DNA of 64,000 nucleotides, from positions 62,001-126,000 of the forward strand of contig CAMPDV010001254.1 in the NCBI GenBank assembly GCA_946699065.1, in the 5' to 3' direction. The position numbers and the translations under genes are program-made. Below, piece after piece: positions 4,772 to 57,349 of this stretch (the stretch's first letter is position 1; every line of letters begins with the position of its first letter). The notes below the pieces were generated by a model. The model made no database searches and was not told where the DNA came from. It was given only the letters and a program-made list of their open reading frames with translations. Origin of the DNA: Loxodes magnus. Taxonomy: Eukaryota; Ciliophora; Karyorelictea; Loxodida; Loxodidae.

Positions 4772-4773
4772 TT

Positions 4774-6694: not shown

Positions 6695-9600
6695 ATGTCA
6701 ATCTCTTTAATTATCTTTTATTTCCTTATCTCTAGAATCTCAGCTTAATTTACATTTTTTGATATACTTGATCCAAATGTTCCAACTTAAAGAGATACTA
6801 ACTCATTGCCTTCTAAAACTTTTTCTGAGTATGGCTAAGATCCGCAGGGACTTCAATTTAGCGTATCAGCCTGGTTAAAATTTAACTCTAGTAGCCAAGT
6901 AATGATTCGAGGTATTTTCCTTTAATTTTATATTAATATTAATGATTAGTATTTTGAATTCGGTTTGACTTAAGATTAAACAAATTAGCAAACTTCTTTC
7001 AAAATATCTTAAAGCATTACAATTTAAGATATAAAGTAATTAACCATCTCCTTTGTTAGTGATATCTGAGTATTTTTTGGATGTGCAATTAATACTCAAG
7101 GAAGCTTTTTAGCTGTTGCAACTCATTCAAAGATAAATAACTAGTTTTAGACTCTATCAGAATCTTTTGGATAACTATTGCCTTTTACTTCAAGTTTTGT
7201 AATAAATTAAGGAAGCAATTATTAAGTTTGGAGTTTTACTGGAACTATTTATTCATCAAGATATTATAAGAATTAACTATTTGATATTAATGCCTTTAAA
7301 TTAATTTTAGATAAGTCAGATTAAGGCTTTCTATAATTAAGTTCTATTATTTGTAATTCTTAATGCTTCAAATGCTTTGGACCTAATTCTAATAGTTGTA
7401 TCCAATGCTATTCCCCATGAGATTTATAGGCAGATTCATGTGTGTGCAACTTAAAGTTATCAGTAGAATAAATATGCAATAGTACATGTCCTATAACATA
7501 ATAAGACTAAGACAATAATAAATAATGCGAGTTTTGTAATGAAACCATTTTAAATTGCGAAGAGTGTAATTAGCAAGGAACTATATGCTCTAAGTGTTAA
7601 AATCCTTGATTGCTATACAATAGTTAGTGTGTAGAGAAATGCCCAAACGAAACATATTTTTAAGATAACTTAACTTGCTTCAAATGCGAATCTAGAATCT
7701 AGAATTGTGAAACGTGTGATATAACTGAAGCTTTGTGTACAAAGTGTTAATATCCATAATTCTTATTCTAGAAGAAATGCGTTTAAAGTTGCCCTAACGA
7801 TAACTTTTATGTTGAGGATTCTATTTGTTTAAACTGTAATTCCTCAATAGAGAACTGTTAAAGATGCAATTTAAATGGATCATAGTGCTTTCAATGCTAA
7901 GAATCTTTTATCTTATTCGAAAACTAGTGTATCTAGAACTGTCCTAACGAAACGTTTTTTATTGAAAATTCTACTTGCCAAAAATGTGAAAATAAGTTAG
8001 AAAATTGCTAAGAATGCAATTCAAACGGAGATAATTGCACAAAATGCTTGAAGCCTTGACTTTTATTCGGCAATAAGTGTGCTAAGAATTGTCCAAGCAA
8101 TCTTTATTATGAAGAGAGTTAAAGTTGCTAACTATGTAGTACGATTATAAGTAATTGTGAAATGTGCAATATAAGTGGTACTGAGTGTGTTAAATGTTAA
8201 GATTTTTATGTTTTGTTTGATGCTATGTGCATTGAAAGTTGTCCTAATCAAACTTACTATATTCAGAACTCCATTTGTCAAAAGTGTTCACAAAAGATCG
8301 AAAACTGTAAATTCTGCAATATTGAAAGAGGAGCATGTTTAGAGTGCTACGATCTTTATTTTCTTTTTCAAGAAACTTCTTGTGTTAGCAAATGCTAATA
8401 AGACTAGATAAATATCAATAAAACTTGTTAATCTTGCGAAATAATTCCTTACTGCTAGTTTTGCTCATGAAATCTTTCATAGAAGATAGAATGCTCTTAG
8501 TGCTAGATAAATTTTGCATTATCAAATAATGAATGCATTGAGAAAAAATAAGAGAATAATTCTAAATCTGGTAACAATGAAAATAATACTGACTCTTAAA
8601 ATTAAGAAGAGGAATAGAAATAAGATTAATTTAAGGATATGAAAAAGAGTCTTGATGACTTCTAAATTTCAAACTCGGAAAAAGATTTTATACAAAATTC
8701 TTCTGATATATCTACTGCTCTTGTTTACACTAGTGCTTTAGTAAGTTTAAATTCTTTATTAACTAGCCTTTTTAGTAACTCTAAGTATTCAGCAAGTACT
8801 CCTAAATTTTTATAAGCTATTTTTATAACTCAACTCATTCTTATGAGCGCATATGTTGATATATAAAGACCTGAAGTTCTTAACGCTTACTATTATACTA
8901 ATGTTGATAATGATTAGAAACAGAATGGACTAAGTAATAATAATTTTATTGGCTTAAATCTAAATTCCAACTAATTGAAAATAGATAAATAAATTTATGT
9001 TTAACTTAATTACTAAAGCTACACTCTATTATCCAATTTATTTGAAGCTCTTTTCCTGCTATTCATTTTACTTTTTATTGACTTACTACTCAAGATTATT
9101 GGACTCAAGTGTTACAAAACTAAAATAGAGAAAATAAGAACTAAATTTACGAACAGAAACTACGTCTCAGTGATTTACAGTATTAAGGCTCTTCAGATTA
9201 ATAATGCTGTTATGTTACAACTTTATCACTTTACTGTTTCTGATTTTTATTCTGGCTTAAATTCCTTCCTTGCTATCCTAGTACTAGTAAGTTTTTATAT
9301 TTAGGTTATTCAAATAGCATGCATTTTTCATAGCTTTCAAGTCCTTAATAAATATTACAGTTTAAAAAATAAATTTTAGGAAACTAAAGAGGAGAAGACA
9401 GAGAAATAAATAGCATAGATTAAAGAAAAGTATATAGTTTACTTTGACTAAAAGAAATAGGATAACAAGATGCAAACACTTTACTAAACTTTCTTTCTAG
9501 TAAGGAGACTTTTTGTTTCTTTTGCAGCTATTATATTAGTAGAGATATAAGTAGCTTAAATCATATTATACCTTATTCATTGTTTAGTTTGGTTCTTTTA

Positions 9601-10129
9601 TATAGTTTATTTCAAACCTTTTAAAAATATTTTGTAGTATGCTGTTGAGATAAGTGGAGAAATGGTACTCATTTTTATTTATTTCTTTAACTTCTATTTC
9701 GAAGCTAACAGTTATAGCACTTATACTTAAGATTTAAATACAGATGCGTAAACATTAGGAGTAGTTATTACAATAACATGTTGTTTTTTCACATTAATAG
9801 CTTTAGTAATATCACTTATATTTTCTTTTATAGATTTGTATAAATCTTGGAAAAAAGCGAGATAAGAGAAAATATAGTAGCAATAGAAGAATGAGTAGCT
9901 ACACCAACAAAATTTATTCAATAAAGATGACTCGAAACAAAAAGTGAACATGCATAACACAACAGTTATATAAAGTCAACGAGAAGGAGTGGATAAATTT
10001 TGTTTGATTTATGAAGATAAAGAGAGAAAAAAGTGCCTAAGCATCACAAAATATAGATCAAGAATAAAAAGCCAAGAAGTCATAAATCCGAGCATATTAG
10101 CCAAAAATAACCATGAAATGAACTCTTAA
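6695..10129 (+). CDS. Gene A: LamG-like, cysteine-rich repeat, multi-pass membrane protein
   Basis: I do not recognise a named gene, but the architecture is clear. Starting at ATG 6695, a signal peptide (MSISLIIFYFLISRISAQ) is followed at residues about 20-220 by a LamG/ConA-like beta domain (for example FSVSAWLKF, VWSFTGT). Residues about 225-610 form furin/growth-factor-receptor-type cysteine repeats of about 45-50 residues, with CPNETYF, CPNDNFY and CPNQTYY marking successive units and many Asn-glycosylation sequons. After an acidic Gln/Asn-rich linker come about seven hydrophobic segments (about 704-722, 778-805, 852-880, 936-975 as two, 985-1005 and 1022-1048), then a basic C-tail. TAA/TAG occur throughout as Gln. 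TGA occurs in frame five times (codons 125, 242, 305, 455, 592), each at a Trp-like position, beside four TGG codons. A surface receptor or adhesin is likely. The end is uncertain: TAA 10127 fits the change in composition, while the next in-frame TGA is only at 10787. Confidence 0.85.
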
Positions 10130-13100
10130 ACTATTTTCCTTGAATTTTATAATTTTTCATTATTTTTTATTATAGAAACTATAAAATAAATTTCATACAA
10201 AAGATGTAGTTATTAATATCTCTTTCTTAGACTTAGTTTAAAATTAGTAAAATTAACTTATATTAAGAAGTCTTTACTATAAATTATTTTATTAATAAAG
10301 ATATTTTATAATTATTTTATTTTTAATCTAAGAAGCAAGCTTAGTAAATAATCAAAGACATATGTAATTTTCTTTTAGTAGCTTTCTTTATTTATACTTT
10401 TATACTCAATTATTTATAATTATCATAACCAATTAAAGATATTTATAAATGAGATGTTTTCATCTATCTTTCTATATAATTTAATATTTAGTTTTTCTTT
10501 TATTTTCTCTTAGTTCTCTTTTATTAATTATGTAATTTTTAATCATTTTATATTTATAAATTTATTATTAATTTTCATAAAAAAGGATTTTACTCTCTGT
10601 ACTGAAATTAAAGCAATATTGTTTCTTATTTTCTATGCTTCTTTTATAATTTTTTAGATATAAATTGCCTATTTTTGTTTTAAGCTTTATTTTTATTTTT
10701 TATTTCACCTTTCGCTCTTAGAAATAACTTTTTATTAGAGTATAATACTTTAGTTTTAGAGTGATTTATATTTAAGATATTTTATTTGATTAAAAGATAT
10801 AAATTTATTTTATTGTCAAATAAATAAAATAAATTGCCTTATAGAGCGAAATAAATAATAATAACCATAAGGTTTTGTTTATTAATAAATATCTTTAAAT
10901 TTAAGTTTAATTTTATCAACTTTACTAAATCCAAATTATAGAGATTATTTATAATTAATTAATTTTATAAATATTTGAAATTCTTAAATTTATTTATTTA
11001 AAATAATGAAAAGCTTTAATTAACTATAAACATTTAGATTTAAATTATTATTATTTTATTTTCACAAAAAAGCTATATTTCTTATTAAATTTAATTTAAC
11101 CTTAAAAGCTTCTATTAATTAATAATAGATTAAATCAATGCAGTTTAATTTAAAATAAATCGCTAAAATAGAAAATTTCACTAAATATATTTAAAATTTA
11201 ATTAAATCTTAATATGAATATAAGCTTTAAGGATATAAATAATTAGTAAGTTAACTTAAAAATAAAAATTATAAATAGCTTTATTTTATTATTCTTTTAA
11301 CTATGGTAGGTTATTTATCTAATCAAATAGCATTTTACTAATTATTATCTTCACTTTTTCTTAAAATTTTCTAAAGAACAATTTTTTAGTTTTAGTCATA
11401 AAAAGTTTTAAGTTTATAAATCTCAAAAAAGAAAAATTAAATTATAAATCTATTTAATGGAAAATTGATAATCAAGATTCAGCTTAAAAAGAAAAATTAA
11501 AATGAACGTAATTATAGTAATTCTATAAGATTTAAATAAGAAATGTAAGTTTATCCTAGTTCAATCTAAACTTTTAAGTAAATCCTAAATAAAAGTATAA
11601 AAAACATTGTTTTTTTAAACTAAATTAAAATTTTCTTACTATGCTTAAATTATTTTTTATCTTTCCCGAGATAAATATAAAAAGTCCAGATTTTAAAATA
11701 AATCAAATTATTTAAAGTACTTATGAAAGTGATATTGGTAATTATTTTAAGATTTGCTATTATAGGAAGAATATAAAAAGAGTGATTTGAAGTAACCTAA
11801 TAAAACTTTTTTTTAATTTAGATATAAACAAAATCTAGCAAAATATAGATAATTTAACTTACAGAATAAAAATCCATGTTAGATTACATGCTAACTTTTA
11901 TATTTATTATATCTAAAGTTTTAAGACATAACTTTTCATTATTCTCTGTTTAGAAATAAAATACTAAATTAATAATTATTTTAAATATGTAATAGCTATC
12001 TATGTATTTAGATTATTTCTTCTTTTATCTAAATATTTATTAATTATATTAAAGAAATAAACTTGAAATATTTTAATATGAGAACCTAAATTAAAATAAA
12101 GAGAAATAAGAGGAATAATTAATTTTTAAACTAATTTGAAAACAAAAAATAATAAAATTATCCATATGCTTATATATTAGATTAAAGAACACTATAATAA
12201 ATTAACTAATTTATTAAGCATTCATAAATTCTTTATACATCTATTTAAGAAAAATATTTAAATAAACATATTATAAAAGGAAATTATAGGAAAGAGTTAT
12301 AATAATTATTTAAAACTACTTTATTTAATTTAGCTTTTATTTATATTCAATTTAATAAAAGATAAACTAATAGAAGGGAAATAAATATAAATAATCAGTC
12401 ATTACTAAAATATAAAAGTTAAATTAAATAATTATAGAAACCTTTTCAACTATACTTTACTAGTAAAATTAAGTTAATAAACATTTTTATATCTCCATAA
12501 ATAAATAAAATTTAAATTATGAAAATTGTTATAGAAATATATAAATGTATAAGAATAGATTAAGTATCCTTTTCTAAAATATAAAAAGATTATATAATTT
12601 ATAAGTATAAATTAAGATATGAAGTATTAAAATAAATTATTTCATTAAATTTATAAAAATTATCTAAAGCTATTTAATTAAATATAAAATTGATATATCG
12701 ATGTTTATTTAGATAAATTATAATCTCTCCTACAATCATATAGATTTAATCTTTTTCTATTTAAGAAATTAAGGGTATTTGAAAAGGAATTTCAAACAAT
12801 TATGTATCTTAAAATTTAAATAAATAACTATATAAAAAGAATAGATTTTTATATCTATCTCTTTAAAAAACCCTTAATAAATATAAATTTATTCTATAAA
12901 TAAACTCTAAATACAGCTAATTAAGATTAAAATTGTGAACTGTGAATAAATATTTTTGCTTATAAAATAAAAGTTTAAGGATTTTACATTAAATTATTTT
13001 GTTACTCTTTTTTAATGGTTAGTTATTTTTATTTTAAAGGATTTATGAGATTCATAGAGTTTTAAATTATATATATGGAATTTTATTTGCTAGATTGATA

Positions 13101-13269
13101 GAATTTTAAGATTTAATCTATATAAATTATTGAAACTCCACAGCAGTATTCTCTGAGAGATCTACGAATAAGATTATATTTCTAGACCAATAAAATAATA
13201 ATTCAGAATATATTTTAGAAAAACAGCTTAATCCATTAAATTTAATTGAAAATAGATTATTATTATATC
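10130..13269. other. Intergenic: 3' flank of gene A and head of second unit
   Basis: A+T-rich non-coding sequence. The first part (10130-10819) is the 3' flank shared with 1136-1858, 19091-19780 and, inverted, about 27060-27735. The rest repeats 1859-4308. No other feature is seen. Confidence 0.6.
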
Positions 13270-13795
13270 TATTTTTTAAAACCGCCATAGTTGTTCGAAG
13301 GTGAGCAACAAGGTCATCTTCATCAGAGGTTGGGGAAGTTAAGTACCCATAATCGACTTTATGTCTTCCTCTGCTTTGGTTTGACCTCGAGACATAAGAT
13401 TCTTAGACCTTCGACACTGGCTTGGCTTGGCTTCGTTTTTTTTTTAATTCTGGAACTAAAGAGAAATAATATTGCGAGCTTCATCAGAGGTGGGGAATTT
13501 AAGTACCCATAATTGACACATGTCGTCTTCTGCTTTGGTGATGCAATGAGAAACAATCCTGCCATGTCCTTGGACCTCCAGCAAGTATTAAAGATTACGA
13601 GTATTCTAAAATTATATCAGTATTGAACATTTTTATCAGTACTGAATAATTATACCAGTATTGAACAAGGTCTACCAGTATCTGATAATTTTATCAGTAA
13701 CAAACATTCTTGTCAGTATGAAACATTTTTTTTTAAAGAGCTGCGCACCAACGAGAGTTCTACGCGCTCTATAATCAAATTTATTTATTTATATC
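13270..13795 (+). mobile_element. SINE-A, second tandem copy
   Basis: Identical in the stretches compared to the element at 4309-4834, offset by 8961. It holds the same two AAGTACCC modules, six 19-bp units and hairpin tail. It was copied as part of the tandem unit rather than by its own transposition. Confidence 0.8.
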
Positions 13796-15655
13796 TTTAT
13801 TATTTAAGATATTTTACCTTTTAGCTTACAATTTTTTGATAATCTTAAGAAACAGATAGTTAGTTTTAAATTTAAAATACAGAATCTTAAAATTTAACCA
13901 TATACTAAATATAAAATAAAGTACTATATGCATTACATTTATAATTTTAATAATTATAAGTATATCTATCTTTATAGGTGTAATAAGCTTAAATTATAAT
14001 ATAATACTTGTAAGGTATGATTTCATTATCCCTTTAAAAATAATATAACTTTATAAATATTTTCAATTTTCTTTCCTCTTAATTAACTAAATCTCAGCTA
14101 GAAAATATGATTATAGCTTTATTATAACAAGTGATGTAAATCATACTTTTTGCTAATTAATTGCTTAGTTACTAACATTTCTAAACTTATGAATATTTAC
14201 CTTCTATCTTTAAATATTGTGTTAAGAGAATTATACTTTAACTAGAAGAATTAGAAATAAAAATCTTGTTTATCTAATAATTTTAATCATAAAACTTGTA
14301 ATCCACTAAGTCATTCATGTATCTTATTCATGTTATTTATCGTGTTTTCTTTTTTTGAATATCAACTTGAGGCTTTCTAATATCACTTTAAATTAAATAA
14401 AAAAGGATAGAGATATAAAGAGTAAGTTGAAAGAAAGATTTTGGCTAATTTAATGATTAAAGGATTTCAAAGTTTTCTTATTACTATCTTATTATAAACT
14501 TGTTCTTACTAAATTACCTTCAAATTAATTATCAATCTCTTAAGATAACTCTTAAAGCAATCTTTCAAAAATAATTAAGCTATTAAAATGTTTATTTTGC
14601 ATCTTTCTTTAATAATAAATTTTACGAACTATCAAATTAAAGTCTACTAATGCATTTTCTTAATAAACCTTATTGATCTAAGAGATAAATTAGATGTTTA
14701 CATTGTAGCAATAAGGAGAAAATAAATGTTCACAAAGCAGAATTAGATTAAATTTAAGCATAACAAAGTAAATGACAGAAAGAAGCTATAAAACAATAAA
14801 ACAATAATTAAAACTAAAAAGTTATTATTCTCTATTTTAGTTTGCTAAGATACTTATAAATCTCTACAAATAAAAGAACAAATAAAAATTGTTGGATCAA
14901 ATAGTGTTGAAGAAATATAATTCTTAAAATAAATCTTTAAGATAAATAATTATAAAACTTAAACTTCAAACCAAAATAATATCAAAAGCATCTATTTTTA
15001 ACTAATAATACCTTAATTAAAAAGAGAGAAAAAGGCATAGAATTTGTGAAGTATGTAATCATCTATATTTCTAAGAAAATTTGAGAAATTCTAGAAAATC
15101 TCAATAAAGATAAGAACAAAAATCTTAAAAATAATTAAAGTTGATAAAGTAAATACTCTATTATTACAATATCTTGCCTTCTACAAATTTATAAATGGCT
15201 TCTCATTAATAAATATAACTTAAACTTTATTTCTCTGAATTATCATTTATTTTTAATATTTATCTACACTAGTTATAATTATAAACACATTGTCCCTATT
15301 TTTTATTTTAAAAACTTTCGAAGTATTAAACTTCTAAATCACTTTAAAGCAGAATATATATATTTAAATTCAAAGTATAACTAAATAAATTTAAGAGCTG
15401 CTTAAATGCAGCACTATACTTCTATCCAATTATCTTGATTATTTCAAGTATTATTTATCATATTAAGAATTTTTATAGTATCTTGAAATAAGAGAAAGAT
15501 TGCTATTGTAGATTAAAATTAAAATTAAAGTCATTTTAGATTTATTTTCTTCCCATATTTGATAAATTGATTATGTAAATTTAAGTTAGTTAAATTTATT
15601 AAATAGCTTACATCTATGTTTATTATTGATATAAGCGTAATTATCTATAAATAAA

Positions 15656-18600
15656 ATGTCAATCTCTTTAATTATCTTTTATTTCCTTATCTCTAGAATC
15701 TCAGCTTAATTTACATTTTTTGATATACTTGATCCAAATGTTCCAACTTAAAGAGATACTAACTCATTGCCTTCTAAAACTTTTTCTGAGTATGGCTAAG
15801 ATCCGCAGGGACTTCAATTTAGCGTATCAGCCTGGTTAAAATTTAACTCTAGTAGCCAAGTAATGATTCGAGGTATTTTCCTTTAATTTTATATTAATAT
15901 TAATGATTAGTATTTTGAATTCGGTTTGACTTAAGATTAAACAAATTAGCAAACTTCTTTCAAAATATCTTAAAGCATTACAATTTAAGATATAAAGTAA
16001 TTAACCATCTCCTTTGTTAGTGATATCTGAGTATTTTTTGGATGTGCAATTAATACTCAAGGAAGCTTTTTAGCTGTTGCAACTCATTCAAAGATAAATA
16101 ACTAGTTTTAGACTCTATCAGAATCTTTTGGATAACTATTGCCTTTTACTTCAAGTTTTGTAATAAATTAAGGAAGCAATTATTAAGTTTGGAGTTTTAC
16201 TGGAACTATTTATTCATCAAGATATTATAAGAATTAACTATTTGATATTAATGCCTTTAAATTAATTTTAGATAAGTCAGATTAAGGCTTTCTATAATTA
16301 AGTTCTATTATTTGTAATTCTTAATGCTTCAAATGCTTTGGACCTAATTCTAATAGTTGTATCCAATGCTATTCCCCATGAGATTTATAGGCAGATTCAT
16401 GTGTGTGCAACTTAAAGTTATCAGTAGAATAAATATGCAATAGTACATGTCCTATAACATAATAAGACTAAGACAATAATAAATAATGCGAGTTTTGTAA
16501 TGAAACCATTTTAAATTGCGAAGAGTGTAATTAGCAAGGAACTATATGCTCTAAGTGTTAAAATCCTTGATTGCTATACAATAGTTAGTGTGTAGAGAAA
16601 TGCCCAAACGAAACATATTTTTAAGATAACTTAACTTGCTTCAAATGCGAATCTAGAATCTAGAATTGTGAAACGTGTGATATAACTGAAGCTTTGTGTA
16701 CAAAGTGTTAATATCCATAATTCTTATTCTAGAAGAAATGCGTTTAAAGTTGCCCTAACGATAACTTTTATGTTGAGGATTCTATTTGTTTAAACTGTAA
16801 TTCCTCAATAGAGAACTGTTAAAGATGCAATTTAAATGGATCATAGTGCTTTCAATGCTAAGAATCTTTTATCTTATTCGAAAACTAGTGTATCTAGAAC
16901 TGTCCTAACGAAACGTTTTTTATTGAAAATTCTACTTGCCAAAAATGTGAAAATAAGTTAGAAAATTGCTAAGAATGCAATTCAAACGGAGATAATTGCA
17001 CAAAATGCTTGAAGCCTTGACTTTTATTCGGCAATAAGTGTGCTAAGAATTGTCCAAGCAATCTTTATTATGAAGAGAGTTAAAGTTGCTAACTATGTAG
17101 TACGATTATAAGTAATTGTGAAATGTGCAATATAAGTGGTACTGAGTGTGTTAAATGTTAAGATTTTTATGTTTTGTTTGATGCTATGTGCATTGAAAGT
17201 TGTCCTAATCAAACTTACTATATTCAGAACTCCATTTGTCAAAAGTGTTCACAAAAGATCGAAAACTGTAAATTCTGCAATATTGAAAGAGGAGCATGTT
17301 TAGAGTGCTACGATCTTTATTTTCTTTTTCAAGAAACTTCTTGTGTTAGCAAATGCTAATAAGACTAGATAAATATCAATAAAACTTGTTAATCTTGCGA
17401 AATAATTCCTTACTGCTAGTTTTGCTCATGAAATCTTTCATAGAAGATAGAATGCTCTTAGTGCTAGATAAATTTTGCATTATCAAATAATGAATGCATT
17501 GAGAAAAAATAAGAGAATAATTCTAAATCTGGTAACAATGAAAATAATACTGACTCTTAAAATTAAGAAGAGGAATAGAAATAAGATTAATTTAAGGATA
17601 TGAAAAAGAGTCTTGATGACTTCTAAATTTCAAACTCGGAAAAAGATTTTATACAAAATTCTTCTGATATATCTACTGCTCTTGTTTACACTAGTGCTTT
17701 AGTAAGTTTAAATTCTTTATTAACTAGCCTTTTTAGTAACTCTAAGTATTCAGCAAGTACTCCTAAATTTTTATAAGCTATTTTTATAACTCAACTCATT
17801 CTTATGAGCGCATATGTTGATATATAAAGACCTGAAGTTCTTAACGCTTACTATTATACTAATGTTGATAATGATTAGAAACAGAATGGACTAAGTAATA
17901 ATAATTTTATTGGCTTAAATCTAAATTCCAACTAATTGAAAATAGATAAATAAATTTATGTTTAACTTAATTACTAAAGCTACACTCTATTATCCAATTT
18001 ATTTGAAGCTCTTTTCCTGCTATTCATTTTACTTTTTATTGACTTACTACTCAAGATTATTGGACTCAAGTGTTACAAAACTAAAATAGAGAAAATAAGA
18101 ACTAAATTTACGAACAGAAACTACGTCTCAGTGATTTACAGTATTAAGGCTCTTCAGATTAATAATGCTGTTATGTTACAACTTTATCACTTTACTGTTT
18201 CTGATTTTTATTCTGGCTTAAATTCCTTCCTTGCTATCCTAGTACTAGTAAGTTTTTATATTTAGGTTATTCAAATAGCATGCATTTTTCATAGCTTTCA
18301 AGTCCTTAATAAATATTACAGTTTAAAAAATAAATTTTAGGAAACTAAAGAGGAGAAGACAGAGAAATAAATAGCATAGATTAAAGAAAAGTATATAGTT
18401 TACTTTGACTAAAAGAAATAGGATAACAAGATGCAAACACTTTACTAAACTTTCTTTCTAGTAAGGAGACTTTTTGTTTCTTTTGCAGCTATTATATTAG
18501 TAGAGATATAAGTAGCTTAAATCATATTATACCTTATTCATTGTTTAGTTTGGTTCTTTTATATAGTTTATTTCAAACCTTTTAAAAATATTTTGTAGTA

Positions 18601-19090
18601 TGCTGTTGAGATAAGTGGAGAAATGGTACTCATTTTTATTTATTTCTTTAACTTCTATTTCGAAGCTAACAGTTATAGCACTTATACTTAAGATTTAAAT
18701 ACAGATGCGTAAACATTAGGAGTAGTTATTACAATAACATGTTGTTTTTTCACATTAATAGCTTTAGTAATATCACTTATATTTTCTTTTATAGATTTGT
18801 ATAAATCTTGGAAAAAAGCGAGATAAGAGAAAATATAGTAGCAATAGAAGAATGAGTAGCTACACCAACAAAATTTATTCAATAAAGATGACTCGAAACA
18901 AAAAGTGAACATGCATAACACAACAGTTATATAAAGTCAACGAGAAGGAGTGGATAAATTTTGTTTGATTTATGAAGATAAAGAGAGAAAAAAGTGCCTA
19001 AGCATCACAAAATATAGATCAAGAATAAAAAGCCAAGAAGTCATAAATCCGAGCATATTAGCCAAAAATAACCATGAAATGAACTCTTAA
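15656..19090 (+). CDS. Gene B: identical tandem copy of gene A
   Basis: The same protein as gene A: signal peptide, LamG-like domain, furin-type cysteine repeats and about seven membrane segments, 8961 bp downstream. All five in-frame TGA codons recur (16028, 16379, 16568, 17018 and 17429). No difference from gene A was found in the stretches compared, including flanks, which points to duplication of the whole unit. The TAA at 19088 is the proposed end, with the same caveat as for gene A. It faces gene C tail to tail. Confidence 0.85.
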
Positions 19091-19780
19091 ACTATTTTCC
19101 TTGAATTTTATAATTTTTCATTATTTTTTATTATAGAAACTATAAAATAAATTTCATACAAAAGATGTAGTTATTAATATCTCTTTCTTAGACTTAGTTT
19201 AAAATTAGTAAAATTAACTTATATTAAGAAGTCTTTACTATAAATTATTTTATTAATAAAGATATTTTATAATTATTTTATTTTTAATCTAAGAAGCAAG
19301 CTTAGTAAATAATCAAAGACATATGTAATTTTCTTTTAGTAGCTTTCTTTATTTATACTTTTATACTCAATTATTTATAATTATCATAACCAATTAAAGA
19401 TATTTATAAATGAGATGTTTTCATCTATCTTTCTATATAATTTAATATTTAGTTTTTCTTTTATTTTCTCTTAGTTCTCTTTTATTAATTATGTAATTTT
19501 TAATCATTTTATATTTATAAATTTATTATTAATTTTCATAAAAAAGGATTTTACTCTCTGTACTGAAATTAAAGCAATATTGTTTCTTATTTTCTATGCT
19601 TCTTTTATAATTTTTTAGATATAAATTGCCTATTTTTGTTTTAAGCTTTATTTTTATTTTTTATTTCACCTTTCGCTCTTAGAAATAACTTTTTATTAGA
19701 GTATAATACTTTAGTTTTAGAGTGATTTATATTTAAGATATTTTATTTGATTAAAAGATATAAATTTATTTTATTGTCAA

Positions 19781-21889
19781 ATAAATAAAATAAATTGCCT
19801 TATAGAGCGAAATAAATAATAATAACCATAAGGTTTTGTTTATTAATAAATATCTTTAAATTTAAGTTTAATTTTATCAACTTTACTAAATCCAAATTAT
19901 AGAGATTATTTATAATTAATTAATTTTATAAATATTTGAAATTCTTAAATTTATTTATTTAAAATAATGAAAAGCTTTAATTAACTATAAACATTTAGAT
20001 TTAAATTATTATTATTTTATTTTCACAAAAAAGCTATATTTCTTATTAAATTTAATTTAACCTTAAAAGCTTCTATTAATTAATAATAGATTAAATCAAT
20101 GCAGTTTAATTTAAAATAAATCGCTAAAATAGAAAATTTCACTAAATATATTTAAAATTTAATTAAATCTTAATATGAATATAAGCTTTAAGGATATAAA
20201 TAATTAGTAAGTTAACTTAAAAATAAAAATTATAAATAGCTTTATTTTATTATTCTTTTAACTATGGTAGGTTATTTATCTAATCAAATAGCATTTTACT
20301 AATTATTATCTTCACTTTTTCTTAAAATTTTCTAAAGAACAATTTTTTAGTTTTAGTCATAAAAAGTTTTAAGTTTATAAATCTCAAAAAAGAAAAATTA
20401 AATTATAAATCTATTTAATGGAAAATTGATAATCAAGATTCAGCTTAAAAAGAAAAATTAAAATGAACGTAATTATAGTAATTCTATAAGATTTAAATAA
20501 GAAATGTAAGTTTATCCTAGTTCAATCTAAACTTTTAAGTAAATCCTAAATAAAAGTATAAAAAACATTGTTTTTTTAAACTAAATTAAAATTTTCTTAC
20601 TATGCTTAAATTATTTTTTATCTTTCCCGAGATAAATATAAAAAGTCCAGATTTTAAAATAAATCAAATTATTTAAAGTACTTATGAAAGTGATATTGGT
20701 AATTATTTTAAGATTTGCTATTATAGGAAGAATATAAAAAGAGTGATTTGAAGTAACCTAATAAAACTTTTTTTTAATTTAGATATAAACAAAATCTAGC
20801 AAAATATAGATAATTTAACTTACAGAATAAAAATCCATGTTAGATTACATGCTAACTTTTATATTTATTATATCTAAAGTTTTAAGACATAACTTTTCAT
20901 TATTCTCTGTTTAGAAATAAAATACTAAATTAATAATTATTTTAAATATGTAATAGCTATCTATGTATTTAGATTATTTCTTCTTTTATCTAAATATTTA
21001 TTAATTATATTAAAGAAATAAACTTGAAATATTTTAATATGAGAACCTAAATTAAAATAAAGAGAAATAAGAGGAATAATTAATTTTTAAACTAATTTGA
21101 AAACAAAAAATAATAAAATTATCCATATGCTTATATATTAGATTAAAGAACACTATAATAAATTAACTAATTTATTAAGCATTCATAAATTCTTTATACA
21201 TCTATTTAAGAAAAATATTTAAATAAACATATTATAAAAGGAAATTATAGGAAAGAGTTATAATAATTATTTAAAACTACTTTATTTAATTTAGCTTTTA
21301 TTTATATTCAATTTAATAAAAGATAAACTAATAGAAGGGAAATAAATATAAATAATCAGTCATTACTAAAATATAAAAGTTAAATTAAATAATTATAGAA
21401 ACCTTTTCAACTATACTTTACTAGTAAAATTAAGTTAATAAACATTTTTATATCTCCATAAATAAATAAAATTTAAATTATGAAAATTGTTATAGAAATA
21501 TATAAATGTATAAGAATAGATTAAGTATCCTTTTCTAAAATATAAAAAGATTATATAATTTATAAGTATAAATTAAGATATGAAGTATTAAAATAAATTA
21601 TTTCATTAAATTTATAAAAATTATCTAAAGCTATTTAATTAAATATAAAATTGATATATCGATGTTTATTTAGATAAATTATAATCTCTCCTACAATCAT
21701 ATAGATTTAATCTTTTTCTATTTAAGAAATTAAGGGTATTTGAAAAGGAATTTCAAACAATTATGTATCTTAAAATTTAAATAAATAACTATATAAAAAG
21801 AATAGATTTTTATATCTATCTCTTTAAAAAACCCTTAATAAATATAAATTTATTCTATAAATAAACTCTAAATACAGCTAATTAAGATT
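19781..21889 (+). repeat. Third, partial copy of the tandem unit
   Basis: This repeats 1859-3967 and 10820-12928 exactly where compared. Identity ends inside TTAAGATTAA, after which only diverged similarity continues. It contains no gene. Confidence 0.85.
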
Positions 21890-23014
21890 AATATTTAAAA
21901 TAAGTATTTTAGCTTATAAAGCTCTTAGAAGAATAAAAGTTAAAGGATTCTACATGAAATTATTTTGTTTCTTTTTTAATGGTTAGTTATTTTTATTTTA
22001 AAGGATTTATGAGATTCATAGAGTTTTAAATTATATATATGGAATTTTATTTGATAAAATAATAGAAATTTAAGATTCAATCTATATAAATTATTAAAAC
22101 TCAACAGCAGTATTCTCTGAGAGATCTACGAATAAGATTATAATTTTAGACCAATAAAAATTAATTCAGAATATATTTTAGAAAAATAGCTTAACCCATT
22201 AAATTTAATTTAAAATAGATTATTATTATATCTTTATTATTTAAGATATTTTACCTTTAGCTTACAATTTTATTAATCTTAAGAGACAGATAGTTAGTTT
22301 TAAATTTAAAATACAGGATCTTAAAATTTAACTATATACTAAATATAAAATAAAGTACTATATGCATTACATTAATAATTTTAAAAATTATAACTATATC
22401 TATTTTTATAGTTGTAATAAGCTTAAATTATAATATAATACTTGTAAGGTATAAATTCATTATCTATTTAAAAATAATTATAACTTTATAAATATTTTCA
22501 ATTTTCTTTCCTCTTAATTAACTAAATCTCAGCCAGAAAATAAGATTATAGCTTTATTATAACAAGTGATGTAAATCATACATTTTGCTACTTAATTACT
22601 TAGTTTCTACATTTCTAGACTTTAGATTTTATTTTCTAACTTTAAATATTGTATTAAGAGAATTATACTTTAACTAGAAGAATTAAAAATAAAAATCTTG
22701 TTTATCTAATAATTTTAATCATAAAACTTGTAATCCACAAAGCCATTCATGTATCTTAGTCATGTTATTTATTGTGTTTTCTTTTTTTTTAATGTCAACT
22801 TGATGCTTTCTAATATAAGTTTAAATTAAATAAAAAAGGATAGAGATATAAAGAGTAAGTTGAAAGAAAGATTTTGGCTATCTTAATGATTAAAGAATTT
22901 CAAAGTTTTCTTATTATTATCTTATTTGAAACTTGTTCTTAGTAAATTAATTTCAAATTAATTATCTATCTCTTAAAGCAATTTTTCGAAAATAATTAAG
23001 CTATAAAAATTTTA
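21890..23014 (+). repeat. Diverged continuation of the unit, with empty SINE-A site
   Basis: Similar to 3968-5625 with substitutions and indels, but it lacks the 526-bp SINE-A. At 22226-22232 TTATATC occurs once, where genes A and B have two copies around the element. The similarity fades near 23000. No coding frame is present. Confidence 0.8.
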
Positions 23015-23059
23015 AGTTTATATCATTCTAGTTTATATCTTTCTAGTTTATATCATTCT
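23015..23059 (+). repeat. Three 15-bp tandem units at the end of the duplicated block
   Basis: AGTTTATATCATTCT, then a variant with T for A at position 11, then the first form again (23015-23029, 23030-23044, 23045-23059). It lies exactly where similarity to the repeat unit stops, so it may mark a rearrangement junction. Confidence 0.8.
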
Positions 23060-25999
23060 AAAAATAGAAGAGAGAATCCTACTTATCCTGAGTTACTTAA
23101 TTAAATAAATCACTTAAATAAAAGAATTAAATTAATAATCATTAATTTAAATATAAAAATAGATATTTTATTAATTAAGCGAAATTGAGGGAAAAGTTTA
23201 AAAAATTTATAGGCAAACTTAAAAAAAAGTTTTTAGCAATTATTCTAATTTAACACAATAATAAAAAGCTTAAGTAATTAAATTAAAAATATCGTGAAAA
23301 GAAAGAAATAATTTATTTTAATTTAAGGATTTTATAATTTTACTTAGGATAAATTAAAGATATTTAAAAAAATTTAAACAATTAAGCAGCTTATAATTGG
23401 TTAAATTTTAATAGCTTTTAATTTAAGCTATCTTTAACCATCAAAGCATCATATTTATTTAATAAATGCTAATAAAGAGAAATGATAAAAATAAACCTAA
23501 TTCACTAAAATTAAATAAAAATGTTTTCCTTTTGGTATCTTTAAACTATTTAATTAAATCATTTTATAATCAAATTTGTTTAAATAAAGTGGCTAATAAA
23601 AATTATAAGTATTTCAAAATTTAAATAAATAACTAATATAAAACAAATATAGATTTATTTTATTTAAATCAAAACCAACCTCAAAAAAAGTCCAATTATT
23701 TATTTATATATAGGAGTTATAACTTGAGCTTTTATCGGAATATTTCAAAATGATTCAATTTGATTTTCAATTATATTCTACATGGTTATATAGCATCCTT
23801 CAGTGTAGAGAATTGAATTATATAAATTTAACTATTTTCAAATAAAAAATAGAAAAATATGAAAAATAGAATTTAGACTGAAAAGAAGAAAATAAGGACG
23901 TTTAAAGGTGATATACAAGTGAATTACAAGATATTTATAATAATCAATTTAAATAAAAAGGTATATAAAAAGAATAAGCAAGAAAGAAGAAGGCTAAAAT
24001 TAGAGTGGATAAGAAAAGAAAAAGGAGGAGTAAATGCAAAGGTTTAAAATTAAAAATTAAAAAAATATTCTTACTCATCTTGATTTGACTTATATATGAT
24101 TACTAAACTATTGAATTGTTTAATAAAAAATTGTCGCATAATCATTTTAAATAAAATAAATAGAAAAAATGATTAAATAGATAATAGATATTTCTAATTT
24201 TTAGAAAGATAGGAGATAAATTTATTTATAGTAGTTTATTTAAATTCATTTAATAAACATATATTTATATGATTTATTATTAGTTTGTTTATTTAAAGTT
24301 TTGCAAATTATTCTTAAAAAATAATCTAAATCTATTTTTAATAGGTTGTTTCTACTCATATCAATAAAAATAGCATTAATTTAGCAAGAATCTTTGATGA
24401 CTCTTTTATCAAAAATTTATCTCAAAAAATATTTACATTAACCGATTTTACTAAGTAGAGCTTTAAATTATTTATATATAAATTATCATGATATAAAATA
24501 TTTTAAATTTAATTTTTAGTCCCTTCAGTTTTTTTCTTCATACTTAATTTGCATCTTATTCATAATTTAAAAAGTTCAATTTCAAAATTTATTATAAATT
24601 TGAATTTATCTAAAATATATAGTAGAAGGTTATTATATTAATTATAAATTTGCTATTCTATGCTAATTATTAAATTCATTTATCTTTATTTCTTCTAGCA
24701 TTATTTAATTTTTATTCTCAAGACTCATCACTAATTATTATTGTTTTCGTTTTATCAAGTATTGATATAAAAATTTAATTTAGTAATAAATTTATCTCCT
24801 TTCCATGTAATCATAAATGTGTAATAAATGTATAATAGTTTATTATGTATTTTTAAGATTATTAACTTGTAATTATTTTAATTTAAAAATGATATTATAA
24901 AATTTAATTCAATTACTATATCAGAATTTCAATAAGATAAATAAATTAAATTATAAATATTAAATTTAAATGAGATTAAAAGGAAATTGTTATAAATTGG
25001 TGAGAAGATATTATATTATAGCAAATCATATAAAATAAATTAGCTGATAATTATTAATGAAAATAAAGATAAAAATAAAGCAATAAAGCAAATTATTAAT
25101 ATTCATTAAATTGAAATAATTAGAAATATATAATTTTAGATATTTGTATAATAAATAGAGTGAATATCTATAGTAAAATATCTAATTAGCTATAAATTTA
25201 TCTATCTTATAAAATGAGGAAGGTGAATAAAAATAAATAGAAGTTGATTTTATTTTGATTTATTGATATATTAAATAAAAATTAATTATAATTAATAAGA
25301 AATTTAATTTATACTAGCTAGAATTTATAAAAAATATTAATTTAATAATAGATAATGATATATTATAACTATAAATAAATTAGTGATATTTAACTCTATA
25401 AACTATTTAAAAAAGATTTATTTTTTTAAAAAGAAGGAATGAATTATCATCAAATCATCTAAAATAAAAAATGTTTAAAGTGATAATCTTAATTTATTAT
25501 AGAAAAAAGATGAGATTAAAGGTATACCAAATAGATAAGAGTAAAATAAGGTGTTTATTATAAATAAATATCTACTTTAACTATTGATTATTTGCTTAAT
25601 AAATTGCAGAATTAAAGTTTCTTAACTCTTAATTTTCTTAATATTTGATAAATTTTGGAATTTATTATTTTTTACTTTCAAATTATCAATCTATACATAT
25701 CTAAAATTTTAGTTAAATCTTAGCTATTAAATTTAATGAGATAAGTTTTCTATCTACATTCAATTTTAAGTTAAAACTAAAATTAAAGTTATAGGTTAAA
25801 TTTTCATTAATCCTTTTTATAATTATAAACTTAATACTTATATTAGCTTAATAAATGAAAAAAATGAAACTTTACTACAACTATTAAATTATTAACTAAA
25901 GTAGTTATTAAAAGGAAAAAATTAGACTAAGCAACTAAATTAAAAACGGAGTAATAATAAAAGATTTTTTCATTTAAGTTTATTTAAGAAATTTTAATT
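23060..25999. other. A+T-rich spacer between inverted blocks
   Basis: No gene is seen. A purine-rich stretch around 23870-24050 (AAG/GAA-rich) reads as Lys/Arg/Glu codons on the plus strand but has no recognisable domain and no clear boundaries, so I do not call it. The remainder is simple A+T-rich sequence. Confidence 0.5.
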
Positions 26000-27739
26000 T
26001 ATTTTAAGGTAGGTATTTATTTAAACATTATACTAAACTCTAATTAAATGTATACAATAAAGGCTATCTAAAATAAATTTATTTTATAAGTCTTTAATAA
26101 TTTATTTTACAATATTTTATATTAAATCTGGATTGCTTACATTTATCTCACAAAAATATAAAAAGATAATTGTAGCATAGTAATAAAAACAATTTATCTA
26201 AAATACAAATATGCCAATTATATTTTGTAATAATTTTATTTAGAATTTATTTTTAAGTCTCAAGTTAAACTAGGATAAACTTCAATTTCTTAATTAAATC
26301 TTATAGAATAACTAAAATTTAATTTATTTTAAATTTTTCTTTTGCTGAGCTATATCTTAGTTAGCAATTTTGATTTTAAATATATTTATTACTTTATTCT
26401 TTTACCTTTTAGATTTAATTTTTGCTTCTTTGAGAATTATAAAACTAAAAATTAAAAAAAATGTAAACATCTTTTGGTTTATAAATTATAAGAAAAGTGA
26501 AGATAATAATTAGCAAAAAGCTATTAGATTGAATAAATAATCTATAATGAATTGTAATAATAATAAAAAGGCTATTTATCAAATTTATTTTTAAGTTAAC
26601 TTGCTCATCATTTTATATCCTTAAAATTTAAAATAATTGTTAATTTTATATATAGTTAGATTCTAAATATGTTTAACGATATTTACAATTAAATAGGTAT
26701 TTATTTTAAGATAAAATTTAAATTATTTATCTATTACTTATTAAAATATATTAGAGGCTTTAATTTTATTTATAAAGGAAATGCTAATTTTCGTTTTTTT
26801 AGAAATTTAAAAAGATATTATTATAAACCTTCTTTTTATAGTTAGTTATAGCTTTTCATAATTTTAAATAAATAAATTTTAGAATATCAAATCTTTAATA
26901 ATTAAATAATTATAAATAATCTCTATAATTTGGATTTAGCAAAAATAATTAAATTAAGTTTAATAAAAAGATATTTATTAATAAACAAAGCCATAAGCTA
27001 TTATTAGTGTTCGCTCTATAGGATAATTTATTTTTATTTATTTGACAATAAAATAAATTTAGGTATTTTAATCAAATAAAATATCTTAAATATTAATCAC
27101 TCTATAACTAAAGTATTATATTCTAATAAAAAGTTATTTCTAAGAGTGAAACTTTAAATTAAAAATTAAAATTAAATTAAAATTAAAATAAGGTATTTAT
27201 ATCTAAAAAATTATAAAAGAAACATAGAAAATAAGAAACAATACAGTTTTAATTTCAGTATAGAGAGTGTAATTCTTTTTTATGAAAATTAATAATAAAT
27301 TTATAAAAATAAAAAGATGAAAAATTACATAATTAATAAAAGAGAACTAAGATAAAATAAAAGGATAGCTAAATATATAGTTATATAGAAAAATAGTTGA
27401 AAACATCACATTTATAATATCTTTAATTGGTTATGATAATTATAAATAATTGAGAATAAAAGTATAAATAAAGAAAGCTACTAAATGAAAACTAAAAATA
27501 GCTTTGAATATTTACTAAGTTTGCTACTTAGATTAAAATTAAAAGATTATAAAATCTCTTTATTAATAAAACAATTTATAGCATAAACTTCTTAATATAA
27601 GTTACTTTTACTAATTTTAAAATGAGTCTAAGAAAGAGGTATTAATAACTACATCTTTTGTATGAAATTTATTTTATAGTTTCTATAATAAAAATTTAGA
27701 AAATTTAGAAAATTTAAGAAAAATAGTTTAAGAGTTCAT

Positions 27740-30700
27740 TCATGTTTATTTTTGGCTATTATGCTTGGATTTATGACTTCTTGGCTTTTTATTCTTTATC
27801 TATATTTTGTGATGTTTAGACACTTTTTTCTCTTCTATATCTCCATAAATCAAACAAAATTTATCCACTCCTTCTCGTTGACTTTATATAACTGTTGTGT
27901 TATGCATGCTCACTTTTTGTTTCGAGTCATCTTTATTGAATAAATTTTGTTGTTGTAACTACTCATTCTTCTATTGCTACTACATTTTCTCTTATTTCGC
28001 TTTTTTCCAAGATTTATATAAATCCATAAAAGAAAATATAAGTGATACTACTAAAGCTATTAATGTGAAAAGACAACATGTTATTGTGGTCACTACTCCT
28101 AATGTTTGCGCATCTGTATTTCAATCTTAAGTATAAGTGCTATAACTGTTAGCTTCGAAATAGAAGTTAAAGAAATAAATAAAAATGAGTACCATTTCTC
28201 CACTTATCTCAACAGCATACTACAAAATATTTTCAAAAGGTTTGAAATAAACTATATAAAAGAACCAAACTAAACAATGAATAAGGTATAATATGATTTA
28301 AGCTACTTATATCTCTACTAATATAATAGCTGCAAAAGAAACAAAAAGTCTCCTTACTAGAAAGAAAGTTTAGTAAAGTGTTTGCATCTTGTTATCCTAT
28401 TTCTTTTAGTCAAAGTAAACTATATACTTTTCTTTAATCTATGCTATTTATTTCTCTGTCTTCTCCTCTTTAGTTTCCTAAAATTTATTTTTTAAACTGT
28501 AATATTTATTAAGGACTTGAAAGCTATGAAAAATGCATGCTATTTAAATAATCTAAATATAAAAACTTACTAGTACTAGGATAGCAAGGAAGGAGTTCAA
28601 GCCAGAATAAAAATCAGAAACAGTAAAGTGATAAAGTTGTAACATAACAGCATTATTAATCTGAAGAGCCTTAATACTATAAATCACTGAGACGTAGTTT
28701 CTGTTCGTAAATTTAGTTCTTATTTTCTCTATTTTAGTTTTGTAACACTTGAGTCCAATAATCTTGAGTAGTAAATCAATAAAAAGTAAAATGAATAGCA
28801 GGAAAAGGGCTTCAAATAAATTGGATAATAGAGTGTAGCTTTAGTAATTAAGTTAAACATAAATTTATTTATCTATTTTCAATTAGTTGGAATTTAGATT
28901 TAAACCAATAAAATTATTATTACTTAGTCCATTTTATTTCTATTTATTGTCAAAGCTAGTATAATAGTAAGCGTTAAGAACTTCAGGTCTTTATACATCA
29001 ACGTATACGCTCATAAGAATGAGTTGAGTTATAAAAATAGCTTATAAAAATTTAGGAGTACTTGCTGAATACTTAGAGTTACTAAAAAAGCTAGTTAATA
29101 AAGAATTTAAACTTACTAAAGCACTAGTGTAAACAAGAGCAGTAGATATATCAGAAGAATTTTGTATAAAATCTTTTTCCGAGTTTGAAATTTAGAAGTC
29201 ATCAAGACTCTTTTTCATATCCTTAAATTAATCTTATTTCTATTCCTCTTCTTAATTTTAAGAGTCAGTATTATTTTCATTGTTACCAGATTTCGAATTA
29301 TTCTTTTATTTTTTCTCAATGCATTCATTATTTGATAATGTAAAATTTATCTAGCACTAAGAGCATTCTATCTTCTATGAAATATTTCATGAACAAAACT
29401 AGCAGTGAGGAATTATTTCGCAAGATTAGCAAGTTTTATTGATATTTATCTAGTCTTATTAACATTCTTTAACACAAGAAGTTTCTTGAAAAAGAAAATA
29501 AGGATTGTAGCACTCTAAACATGCTCCTCTTTCGATATCGCAAAATTTGCAGTTTTCTATCTTTTGTGAACACTTTTGACAAATGGAGTTCTGAATATAG
29601 TAAATTTGATTAGGACAACTTTCAATGCACATATTATCAAACAAAACATAAGGGTCCTAACATTTAAGACACTCAGTACCATTTATATTACACATTTCAC
29701 AATTACTTAAGCTCTAATTACATAGCTAACAACTTTAACTCTGTTCATAATAAAGATTGCTTGAACAATTCTAAACACATTTATTGCCGAATAAAAGCCA
29801 AGATTCCAAGCATTTTACGCAGATATCTCCATTTGAATTGCATTCTTAGCAATTTTCTAACTTATTTTCGCATTTTAGGCAAGTAGAATTTTCAATAAAA
29901 AACGTTTCGTTAGGACAGTTCTAGATGCACTAGTTTTCGAATAAGATAAAAGTCTCTTTGCATTGTAAGCACAATGATCCATTTAAATTGCATCTTTAAC
30001 ATTTTTCTATTGAGGAATTACAGCTTATGCAAATAAAATCCTCAACATAAAAACTATCGTTAGGGCAATTTTAAACGCATTAATTTTAGATTAAAAGTAA
30101 TGGATATTAACACTTTGTACACAAAGTTCCAGTTTCACAATTCTAGATTCTAGATTCGCATTTGAAGCAAGTTAAGTTATTTTAAAAATATGTTTTGCTT
30201 ATGCATTTCTCTACACACTAACTATTTTATAATAATCAAGGATTTTAACACTTAGAGCATATAGTTCCTTGTTAATTGCACTCTTCACAATTTAAAATGA
30301 TTTCATTACAAAACTCGCATTATTTATTATTGTCTTAGTCTTATTATGTTATAGGACATGTACTATTACATACTTATTCTACTGATAACTTTAAATTGCA
30401 TATGCATGAATCTGCCTATAAATCTCATGGGGAATAGCATTGGATGCAATTATTAGAATTAATTCCATAACAATTAAAGCATTAGGAATTACAAGTAATA
30501 GAACTTTATTATAGAAAGCCCTAATAAGACTAGTCTAAAATGTACTGAAAGTCGACAATGCCTAAATATTAATTCTTATAATATCTTAATGAATAAGTAG
30601 TCCCAGTAAAACTTCAAGCCTTATTAATACTTCCTTAATTTATTTCAGTACTTGAAGTAAAAGGCAATAATTACCCAAAGGATTCTGATAGAGTCTAAAA

Positions 30701-31147
30701 CTAGTTATTTTTCTTTTAATGAGTTGCGAGAGCTATAAAATCTCCTTGAGAATTAATTGCACGTCCAAAAAATACCCAGATATCACTAAAAAAGAAGATG
30801 GTTAATTACTTTATATCATAAATTGAAATGCTTTAAATTATTTAGAAAGTAGTTTGCTAATTTGTTTAATCTTAGGTCAAACCGAATTCCAGAAAATTCG
30901 AAACACCATCATGAAATTGAAGGAAAATACCATGAATCTCTACTTGTTTACTAGAGCTAAATTTTAACCAGGCTGTAACGCTAAATTAAAGTCCTTGGGG
31001 ATCTTAGCCATATTCAGAAAAAGTTTTAGATGGCAATGAGTTAGTATCTCTTTAAGTTGGAACATTTGGGTCAAGTATATCAAAAAATGTTAATTAAGCT
31101 GAGATTCTAGAGATAAGGAAATAAAAGATAATTAAAGAGATTGACAT
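27740..31147 (-). CDS. Gene C: diverged inverted paralog of gene A
   Basis: Read from ATG at 31147 the frame stays open to TGA 27740-27742 (about 1135 residues). Signal peptide, LamG-like domain, cysteine repeats and membrane segments are in the same order as in gene A. One cysteine unit is shortened in frame (CETGTLCTKC in place of CETCDITEALCTKC). It has TGG where A has TGA at two Trp sites (30776-30778 and 29798-29800) and TGA (30614-30616) where A and D have TGG. It keeps TGA at other sites. TAA replaces CAA and CAA replaces TAA at Gln positions. No frameshift is seen until one extra base near 27840, which changes the last 30 or so residues. The differences are mostly conservative, as expected for a gene kept under selection. 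Confidence 0.82.
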
Positions 31148-48535: not shown

Positions 48536-49374
48536 AAATTATCTCAATAATATTGATTACTCTTCTTTAATTATTTTATCCTCGCTGAATCTCTAAAAAG
48601 ATTGCTCCAATAACTCCTTCACTTGTTTATCATTTTGCTCTAAATTTTAAATTTTTCAGCTATTTTATAATTAAAAAAATTCATTTATAAATGATATCTC
48701 AAACAGAATTTACATTATAAACATTAACTAAAAATTTCTAAAAAAGATAATTAAATATTCTTATAACTAAATTATTTTCACTTTAAATCTATACTAAACC
48801 TCATAAACATAACTTAAATATTCAATTTTATGAAAATATTTTAATTAATAGTATTTATACCTCTATTTTTTAATTTTTTCCTAATCATTTAAAATTTTTC
48901 TATATTTAATCATTTTTTATCTTCTTATCATTTCTCATAAACATCATGCTATAGAATAGCTTCTTCAAACTAAAAAAAATGAAACCAAATATAAAATGAA
49001 AGCAATTTTTAATTGATGAATATAGATTTTTATCTTAATATATTTTATCATTTTTTTTCTTTTATTCTTACTTTATTTACAATACTTTACTGTTTTTCTT
49101 TCCTTTTTTCATGCCTTAAACTACTTTTAAATTGAAATTAACATTTAACGTTAAATTATAGTTCGAATTACTTTGTAAATGCTCAAATACTTTACAAAAT
49201 TGATTAATATTGAAAATTATTTTCTTATTATTCTAGATTATTTAATAAATCAAACTAGCAATAAATTCTTATTAAAGTTGATAAAATGTTTAAAAGCATT
49301 TCTATTAAAATTTCTGATTGATGAAATAATGAAAACAGTATTTTCTTTAAAATTATAAACTTTTTTTAAATTAA
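48536..49374. other. A+T-rich sequence, no gene seen
   Basis: No feature could be supported between the LINE fragments. Confidence 0.5.
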
Positions 49375-50488
49375 AAATGAGATGTTAGAATAAAAATTGC
49401 AGTCTATAAATTTAAACATTACTTATGACAAAAAACGTTGAGATTAAGAGGCAAATTAATAAGAAATTAAGGAAAAACCATAGACGGATTATTGTTCGAC
49501 CTAAGTAAAGAAGAGAATTTTATATTTGAATAATACTGCACAGCAATAAAAATAGAATTAAAAATTGAAGACAAATAAATATTTATAGATGATGGTAAGA
49601 ACAATTAAAAAGGAAAGAAAAACATTAACCGTGCAATATGAGAATATAGAGTGTACGTAGAAGACAGAGAAAGGATGGAGTAAATGATAATAACATTACA
49701 ATATAGAAAAACATGATTTGATGAATATGTAGGACCAACCAACTACCTGAGATTTAATACAAATAGAAAAGAAGATATATGTTACCTATTTAGAATAAGA
49801 ACGAGATGCAATGGGAGCTAGGATTGCTTAAAAGAAAGACACCTAGTTATGACAAATCAATGCCCTTTCTGTAATAATGCAAGAGAAAATGAAAGGCATA
49901 TCATAGAAAACTGTTCAGAATACAAAGAAGGAAGATAATAATGTTTCTGAAATCTTAGAGTAATAGGAGTAGAGAGATAAGGAATAAATCTATTTTATAT
50001 AATATGACGAACGGCCAAATTCGAGAAATTCATTAGAACCTAAGAAGAGTAAAAAAGAGGTAAAGCTGACTTGATAATAAAAGATTATATCAAAGATATA
50101 TTAGAAAAAAGGAAAAGAGGGTATATAGAAAAGAAAATTGAATGAAAAAGAGAAATAAGAAAAGACTATAGAGCAGGAAAAGGATAATTTTTCAAGTGTA
50201 TAAAACTTGATAAAGAAGAAAATAATTAGAAATGAAAATTAGTAAGATATGTAAGAAAAAATAAATTAGACTTGCAATAAAGATCTATTAAAGCGTAGAT
50301 AGATAGAAGACAGAAGAACAAGAGATAATGTAGAGAAAAATGAGGAAGATATGTAACTAATAAGAGAAGAATTTCTATTACCTGAAGGCTTACTTGAAGA
50401 AACGGACATATATTGAGATATGTAAAGACCTGCGCACCAACGAGGTGCTACGCGCTCTATTATCAATTTTATTTATTTATTTATAGTT
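49375..50488 (+). mobile_element. LINE-1 (this window), 5'-truncated copy
   Basis: Nearly identical to the reverse complement of 57330-58445; the match begins abruptly near AAATGAGATGTTAGAA. It is the 3' end of ORF2 plus the tail, as expected when reverse transcription stops early. The reading frame includes the C-terminal knuckle CPFCNNARENERHIIENC (49861-49914), typical of many LINE ORF2 proteins after the RT. Four in-frame TGA codons (49639, 49714, 49948, 50005) lie in contexts RAI-W-EYR, RKT-W-FDEY, CF-W-NLR and YII-W-RTA, all fitting Trp. It ends in the hairpin (50427-50460) and a TTTA tail. Very few differences from the long copy suggest recent mobility. Confidence 0.85.
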
Positions 50489-57319: not shown

Positions 57320-57349
57320 GTAAATAAAAATAGATAAATAAATAAAATT

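Follow-up and report, generated by a model that had tools for sequence, protein, structure and literature searches.

In the 64,000-nucleotide stretch of Loxodes magnus DNA analysed here (the window), a family of paralogous genes, designated A to D, uses TGA and TGG interchangeably, and the stretch is best read, with a probability of roughly 93%, as karyorelict nuclear DNA whose code assigns UAA and UAG to glutamine and internal UGA to tryptophan, with UGA acting as stop close to the 3′ end of the mRNA (NCBI translation table 27). A preliminary description of this DNA had proposed that UGA is read as tryptophan in the family, and this proposal is upheld by the conservation of the reading frame, the exchange between Trp codons and TGA, a mostly aromatic repeat column and three genes located elsewhere in the assembly. 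The code as such is already known, being the one described for karyorelicts, Loxodes among them. The present analysis amounts to a sequence-only, independent confirmation, in which a genome lacking an unambiguous stop codon was recognised from paralogs alone.

Gene A (6695..10129, plus strand), which starts with MSISL, contains in-frame TGA codons at 7067, 7418, 7607, 8057 and 8468. Gene B (15656..19090, plus strand) is a letter-for-letter copy of A, and because of this identity B was not counted as independent evidence. Both copies originate from an exact repeat with a period of 8,961 bp, which spans 1851-21891 with zero mismatches and reflects tandem duplication in the very recent past or, alternatively, misassembly. 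Gene C (27740..31147, minus strand) is a paralog of ~1,135 codons with in-frame TGA codons at 30616-30614, 30427-30425, 30238-30236, 29389-29387 and 28123-28121. Gene D (63336..64000, plus strand) is interrupted by the end of the window and carries TGA at 63702 and TGG at three codons in its window part; reading was continued for 433 bases past the window to the end of the contig, which still falls within D. A fifth paralog, E, is located 5′ of the window.

The products of A (6695, plus), C (31147, minus) and D (63336, plus) are closely related and all open with MSISLI.FYFLISRISAQ. From the N- to the C-terminus the product of A shows an apparent signal peptide, a Laminin-G-like part, Cys-rich repeats and a hydrophobic multi-spanning part. 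The match of the N-terminal part to the Pfam-type profile Laminin_G_3 was sub-threshold, and therefore no weight was put on its identity; structure prediction for this part (pLDDT 32) was of no use. Comparison of the whole protein with a protein database revealed two Cys-rich relatives (E 4e-64 and 9.5e-16, with 31% and 27% identity), and the membrane part found no relatives there. Pattern searches of viral contigs and genome contigs with back-translated family patterns also returned no relatives; these misses are weak because TAA/TAG may not have been permitted for Gln in the back-translation. The units of A and C are 88% identical across 7.8 kb, the N-terminal half having diverged like the upstream flank (10%) and the 3′ half differing by 2.5%, and the membrane part of E (from 6526 of the E-bearing stretch) is quite unlike that of the other members. 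This pattern of divergence in A, C and E is suggestive of a surface protein family that diversifies, with gene conversion or the swapping of domains.

The sites at which TGA and TGG had been said to swap were compared codon by codon. At SDI-x-VFFG, A (7067) and D (63702) carry TGA and C carries TGG (30778-30776); at x-SFTGT, A (7229) and D read TGG and C reads TGA (30616-30614); and at x-LLFGN, TGA in A (8057) stands opposite TGG in C (29800-29798). All three swaps thus exist as described, the coordinates given earlier for C (30776, 30614 and 29798) being the low ends of the codons, and A, C and D are indeed long paralogs with in-frame TGA, to which B adds an exact copy of A. Seven A-C columns contain TGA on at least one side: in three of them TGA is common to both genes (columns 241, 304 and 591), three pair TGA with TGG and one pairs TGA with TTA. 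TGG is retained in both genes at a further three columns. Pooled over A and C, about half of the Trp codons are TGA (10 TGA, 9 TGG).

As a neutral control the A-C flanks (2630 + 1484 aligned bases) were evaluated in the same manner. Where TGA differed between the two genes, TGG stood opposite in 3/4 coding columns, compared to 6 of the 64 differing TGA triplets in the flanks, which were more often paired with TAA (15) or TTA (9). Measured against the flank frequency, the exchange between TGA and TGG exceeds chance (binomial P ~0.003); a neutral model built on the flank rates gives TGG an expected share of 12% among TGA partners. The earlier statement that TGA occurs only at Trp-like sites is slightly too strong, as exceptions were observed in C, D and E. 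The TGA of C at 28123-28121 (A/C column 1013) is opposite TTA (Leu) in A; beyond the window, D reads TTA at column 241, a TGA column in both A and C; and E carries TGA where A/C/D read Arg/His/Trp, Ser/Ser/Asn and Gln/Leu/Leu. A similar picture emerged from the family-wide alignment of TGA partners that the preliminary description had recommended. In pairwise comparisons across A, C, D and E, with E represented by its first 640 codons (its diverged part beyond codon 640 carries 8 further TGAs), TGA was opposite TGA 16 times, and TGG was the commonest other partner (9) though not the sole one, being followed by TTA (5) and six others (AGC 2, CGA 1, TAA 1, CAT 1, AAT 1). Such mixed partners are as expected if Trp sites also undergo ordinary replacement in a fast-evolving protein.

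The Cys-rich repeats provide a further view of the same codon. Within the length filter eight repeats per gene were counted; a ninth in A and in C, which differs in length and has TGA as its second residue, fell outside the filter. At the fourth position after CxxC, TGA occurs in 3/8 repeats of A and 2/8 of C, and the remaining repeats have Q, F, Y, Y and F in A and L, F, W, Y, Y and F in C. Among distant relatives the matching column holds F, Y or W in 16/21 repeats of P0004 and is aromatic in 0/10 repeats of P0005. Taken together, the mostly aromatic column and TGG as the exchange partner indicate Trp. For glutamine, the claimed exchanges of CAA with TAA and of TAG with TAA were likewise found. 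The A-C partners of TAA comprised TAA in 47 columns, CAA in 4, CAG in 1, TAG in 5 and non-Gln codons in 9, from which UAA and UAG are read as glutamine as in table 27.

The frame itself was assessed against the flanks. Between A and C the upstream flank (2630 aligned bases) has accumulated 267 substitutions and 31 indels, 24 of which are not multiples of three, and the downstream flank (1484 bases) 270 substitutions and 24 indels, 22 of them frame-breaking, giving 46 frame-breaking indels among 55 in the pooled flanks. In the coding region 6695-9990 (3281 bases) there are 225 substitutions and only two indels, of 3 and 12 nt, both in frame. Hence, no frame-breaking indel was observed where ~19 would be expected at the flank rate (P ~4e-9 by a simple Poisson estimate). 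The segment 9991-10200, which contains three 1-nt A/C indels (A positions 10019, 10116 and 10159, the first two touching the likely coding tail), was left out of both the coding and the flank counts. Even in the 5′ half of the gene, whose divergence equals that of the upstream flank, the number of frame-breaking indels is zero. Overall the dN/dS ratio of A versus C is 0.39, declining from 0.51 in the N-terminal part through 0.34 in the repeats to 0.26 in the membrane part, and 68/69 Cys columns are kept. In the first 640 codons of E compared to A, indels of 3, 3 and 12 bases were found along with one 1-nt gap at the extreme end of the aligned stretch; the 954 aligned upstream bases contain ten indels.

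These data bear directly on the possibility that the window derives from a ciliate with the Tetrahymena code, in which UGA is the sole stop, and that the TGAs arose by drift from TGG in dead gene copies. G-to-A changes are frequent in the flanks, a few TGAs are opposite non-Trp codons, the last A-versus-C stretch contains 1-nt indels, and the window does harbor a truly decayed LINE. Nevertheless, decay of this kind is extremely unlikely: none of the expected frame-breaking indels occurred in the 3281 coding bases, the dN/dS ratio and the retained Cys columns point to selection, and TGG is a minor partner of TGA in the neutral flanks. Moreover, the TGAs common to A and C predate the 225 substitutions, and therefore the reading frame has been maintained for a long time since TGA appeared in it. 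In agreement with the preliminary description, which had held that random decay does not predict such exchanges, mutational decay was rejected on the grounds of the flank control, the selection and a frame free of frameshifts up to 10019. A local picture of actual decay, in contrast to the frame of A and C, is given by the LINE relic at 57-61 kb, and TGA at Trp sites of unrelated genes elsewhere in the assembly is equally at odds with a decay of the family. The best explanation for A, B, C and D is a fast-evolving membrane protein family in which TGA and TGG are interchangeable for Trp.

In order to cover other genes, 20 stretches of 10 kb each, i.e. 200 kb of the 706 Mb assembly (705,730,643 bases in 7,843 contigs), were sampled. 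Coding segments were called by a codon-usage model that gave TGA zero weight, and 45 were listed. With TGA read as X, 19/45 segments were scanned with Pfam, 11/19 of which matched; five of those 11 were compared with PDB sequences, two finding no match there and three being aligned. In the kinase domain of a casein kinase I homolog three X were opposite W, S and W, and in a SEC13 homolog both X were opposite W. A Kelch homolog gave weak matches (best E 4.5e-7), and in the repeats shown its single aligned X was opposite W. TGA thus faced Trp at 5/6 aligned positions in three unrelated genes, a small sample, and internal UGA behaves as tryptophan, as in table 27, here as well as in the 3/4 differing A-C columns. 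The segments contain 6 (kinase), 2 (SEC13) and 3 (Kelch) TGAs in total, of which 3, 2 and 1 lay within the aligned domains. The behavior of these genes is also relevant to the idea that, in the A-D family only, UGA is a stop that is bypassed by programmed or leaky readthrough, rather than a sense codon genome-wide. Although insertion of Trp at UGA by a near-cognate tRNA is described for organisms with the standard code, the chance that readthrough accounts for the family is practically negligible: A and C each carry five TGAs ahead of the likely end, these exchange with TGG, and three unrelated genes behave alike. With UGA as sense codon, annotation tools that treat UGA as stop would fragment the A-D family as well as the SEC13 and casein kinase I homologs.

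A role as terminator is proposed for UGA in this DNA, and the gene ends differ in this respect. In C an in-frame TGA at 27742-27740 coincides with a fall in G+C, the next 60-base bin having 0.10 instead of 0.27 and those beyond it 0.10-0.23, and is likely the terminal codon. The 126 codons ahead of this likely stop contain no other TGA, and in this one gene a TAA lies two codons ahead of it. The terminal TGA of C is not in frame in A and B. After 8468, A has no in-frame TGA until 10787, which leaves A and B with a UGA-free frame of more than 2.3 kb. The end of A is uncertain, as a 1-nt indel relative to C near 10019 puts the last ~32 codons into another frame and a second difference follows at 10116; the first in-frame TAA or TAG past this indel is TAA 10127-10129, near the fall in G+C. 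One might accordingly consider a code of the Condylostoma type (table 28), where UAA and UAG, too, act as stops close to the 3′ end of the mRNA, since A has no TGA in frame over this stretch (8468 to 10787) and the TAA at 10127-10129 is suitably placed. This is very unlikely for the window, given that C has its TGA exactly at the fall in G+C, that UGA is reported as the sole stop for Loxodes, and that the missing TGA in A can be a 1-nt change or error. Also unlikely is a role for UAA as a second, minor terminator, with A and B, if expressed, possibly stopping at UAA, the first one past the indel being 10127-10129; if true, the code would be intermediate between tables 27 and 28. We read the difference between the ends of A and C as a mutation or a sequence error close to where A terminates.

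The decayed LINE (57322..60990, minus strand) consists of fragments of an endonuclease (Exo_endo_phos_2) and a reverse transcriptase that are spread over several frames, and a 5′-truncated copy (49363..50494, plus strand) is 98.4% identical to it and shares its 3′ end. The relic displays LINE motifs, including an endonuclease motif GD-TGA-N; because the element is frameshifted, its TGAs were not used for the code. The reverse-transcriptase piece matched an R2 protein, and in this alignment the TGA ahead of KAAGPD was opposite no Trp. Six-frame Pfam searches of 33.8-53.5 kb, of the plus strand of 53.4-57.3 kb and of the minus strand of 57.3-63.4 kb gave only the LINE endonuclease above the cut-off. 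In view of the high A+T content and the LINEs, a Tetrahymena germline origin was considered and rejected, the Tetrahymena breakage motif giving 4 matches versus 4.9 expected by chance.

Furthermore, a short repeat occurs in three copies (~4300-4830 and 13261-13791 on the plus strand, 33040-33600 on the minus strand), the second being part of the exact repeat of the first. Its 3′ tail, CTGCGCAYCAACGAG, a few bases, CTACGCGCTC and then ATTT repeats, is much like that of the LINE, as judged from the LINE ends near 50430-50490 and 57320-57390, and the element looks like a SINE that may borrow the 3′ end of the LINE. An island at 39950-40300 has 44-51% G+C over ~250 bases within DNA of ~15% G+C and one frame without TAA/TAG; it had no match in Rfam up to E 1. 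Searches of the whole window with Rfam at gathering scores and with ARAGORN found nothing. Among 63 tRNA matches listed for the assembly, eight were read and 8/8 were tRNA-Lys(TTT); many of the 63 have one common score and some are regularly spaced, as in repeat arrays.

According to published work, from which the mechanism considered here is taken, UGA would be read by a tRNA-Trp(CCA) with a shortened anticodon stem, and the context of the 3′ end would make it a stop. The preliminary description had suggested a search for tRNA-Trp(UCA), the absence of which was to count against UGA as Trp. In Condylostoma magnum, however, UGA is translated as Trp and no nuclear tRNA-Trp(UCA) was detected (Swart et al. 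2016, PMC4967479); the test is therefore unsound and could have misled. The practical gain is a warning that a missing tRNA-Trp(UCA) does not refute UGA as Trp.

Comparison with known systems agrees with the earlier guess of a karyorelictean or Condylostoma-like code, and the Tetrahymena/Paramecium type (table 6), in which UGA is never sense, does not fit the internal UGAs. In Condylostoma magnum (table 28) all three stop codons are translated, too, with UGA as Trp, but UAA and UAG also terminate, which is hinted at here only by the missing TGA of A. Plagiopyla frontata is predicted to use identical assignments (UAA/UAG as Gln, UGA as Trp; PMC10553269), yet internal UGA is given there at conserved Trp in 3/240 proteins, as opposed to the 10 TGA versus 9 TGG in A and C. 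Amoebophrya sp. ex Karlodinium veneficum is reported to translate all three stops as well; it is a dinoflagellate, to which no feature here points. The closest system is Loxodes magnus itself, whose macronucleus is assigned NCBI code 27 with UGA as the sole reported stop and whose LINEs carry the Exo_endo_phos_2 endonuclease. Two points are unlike the published description: the G+C content of gene A is 27.4% compared to 33.5% reported for coding sequence, though genes within one genome can vary, and C has TAA two codons ahead of its likely stop, whereas coding UGA and UAA are reported as depleted ~20 codons ahead of the stop in table 27. In UAA/UAG as Gln, internal UGA as Trp, the likely UGA stop of C and LINEs with Exo_endo_phos_2 and reverse transcriptase, the window agrees with Loxodes magnus, and none of the tested defining features of table 27 differs.
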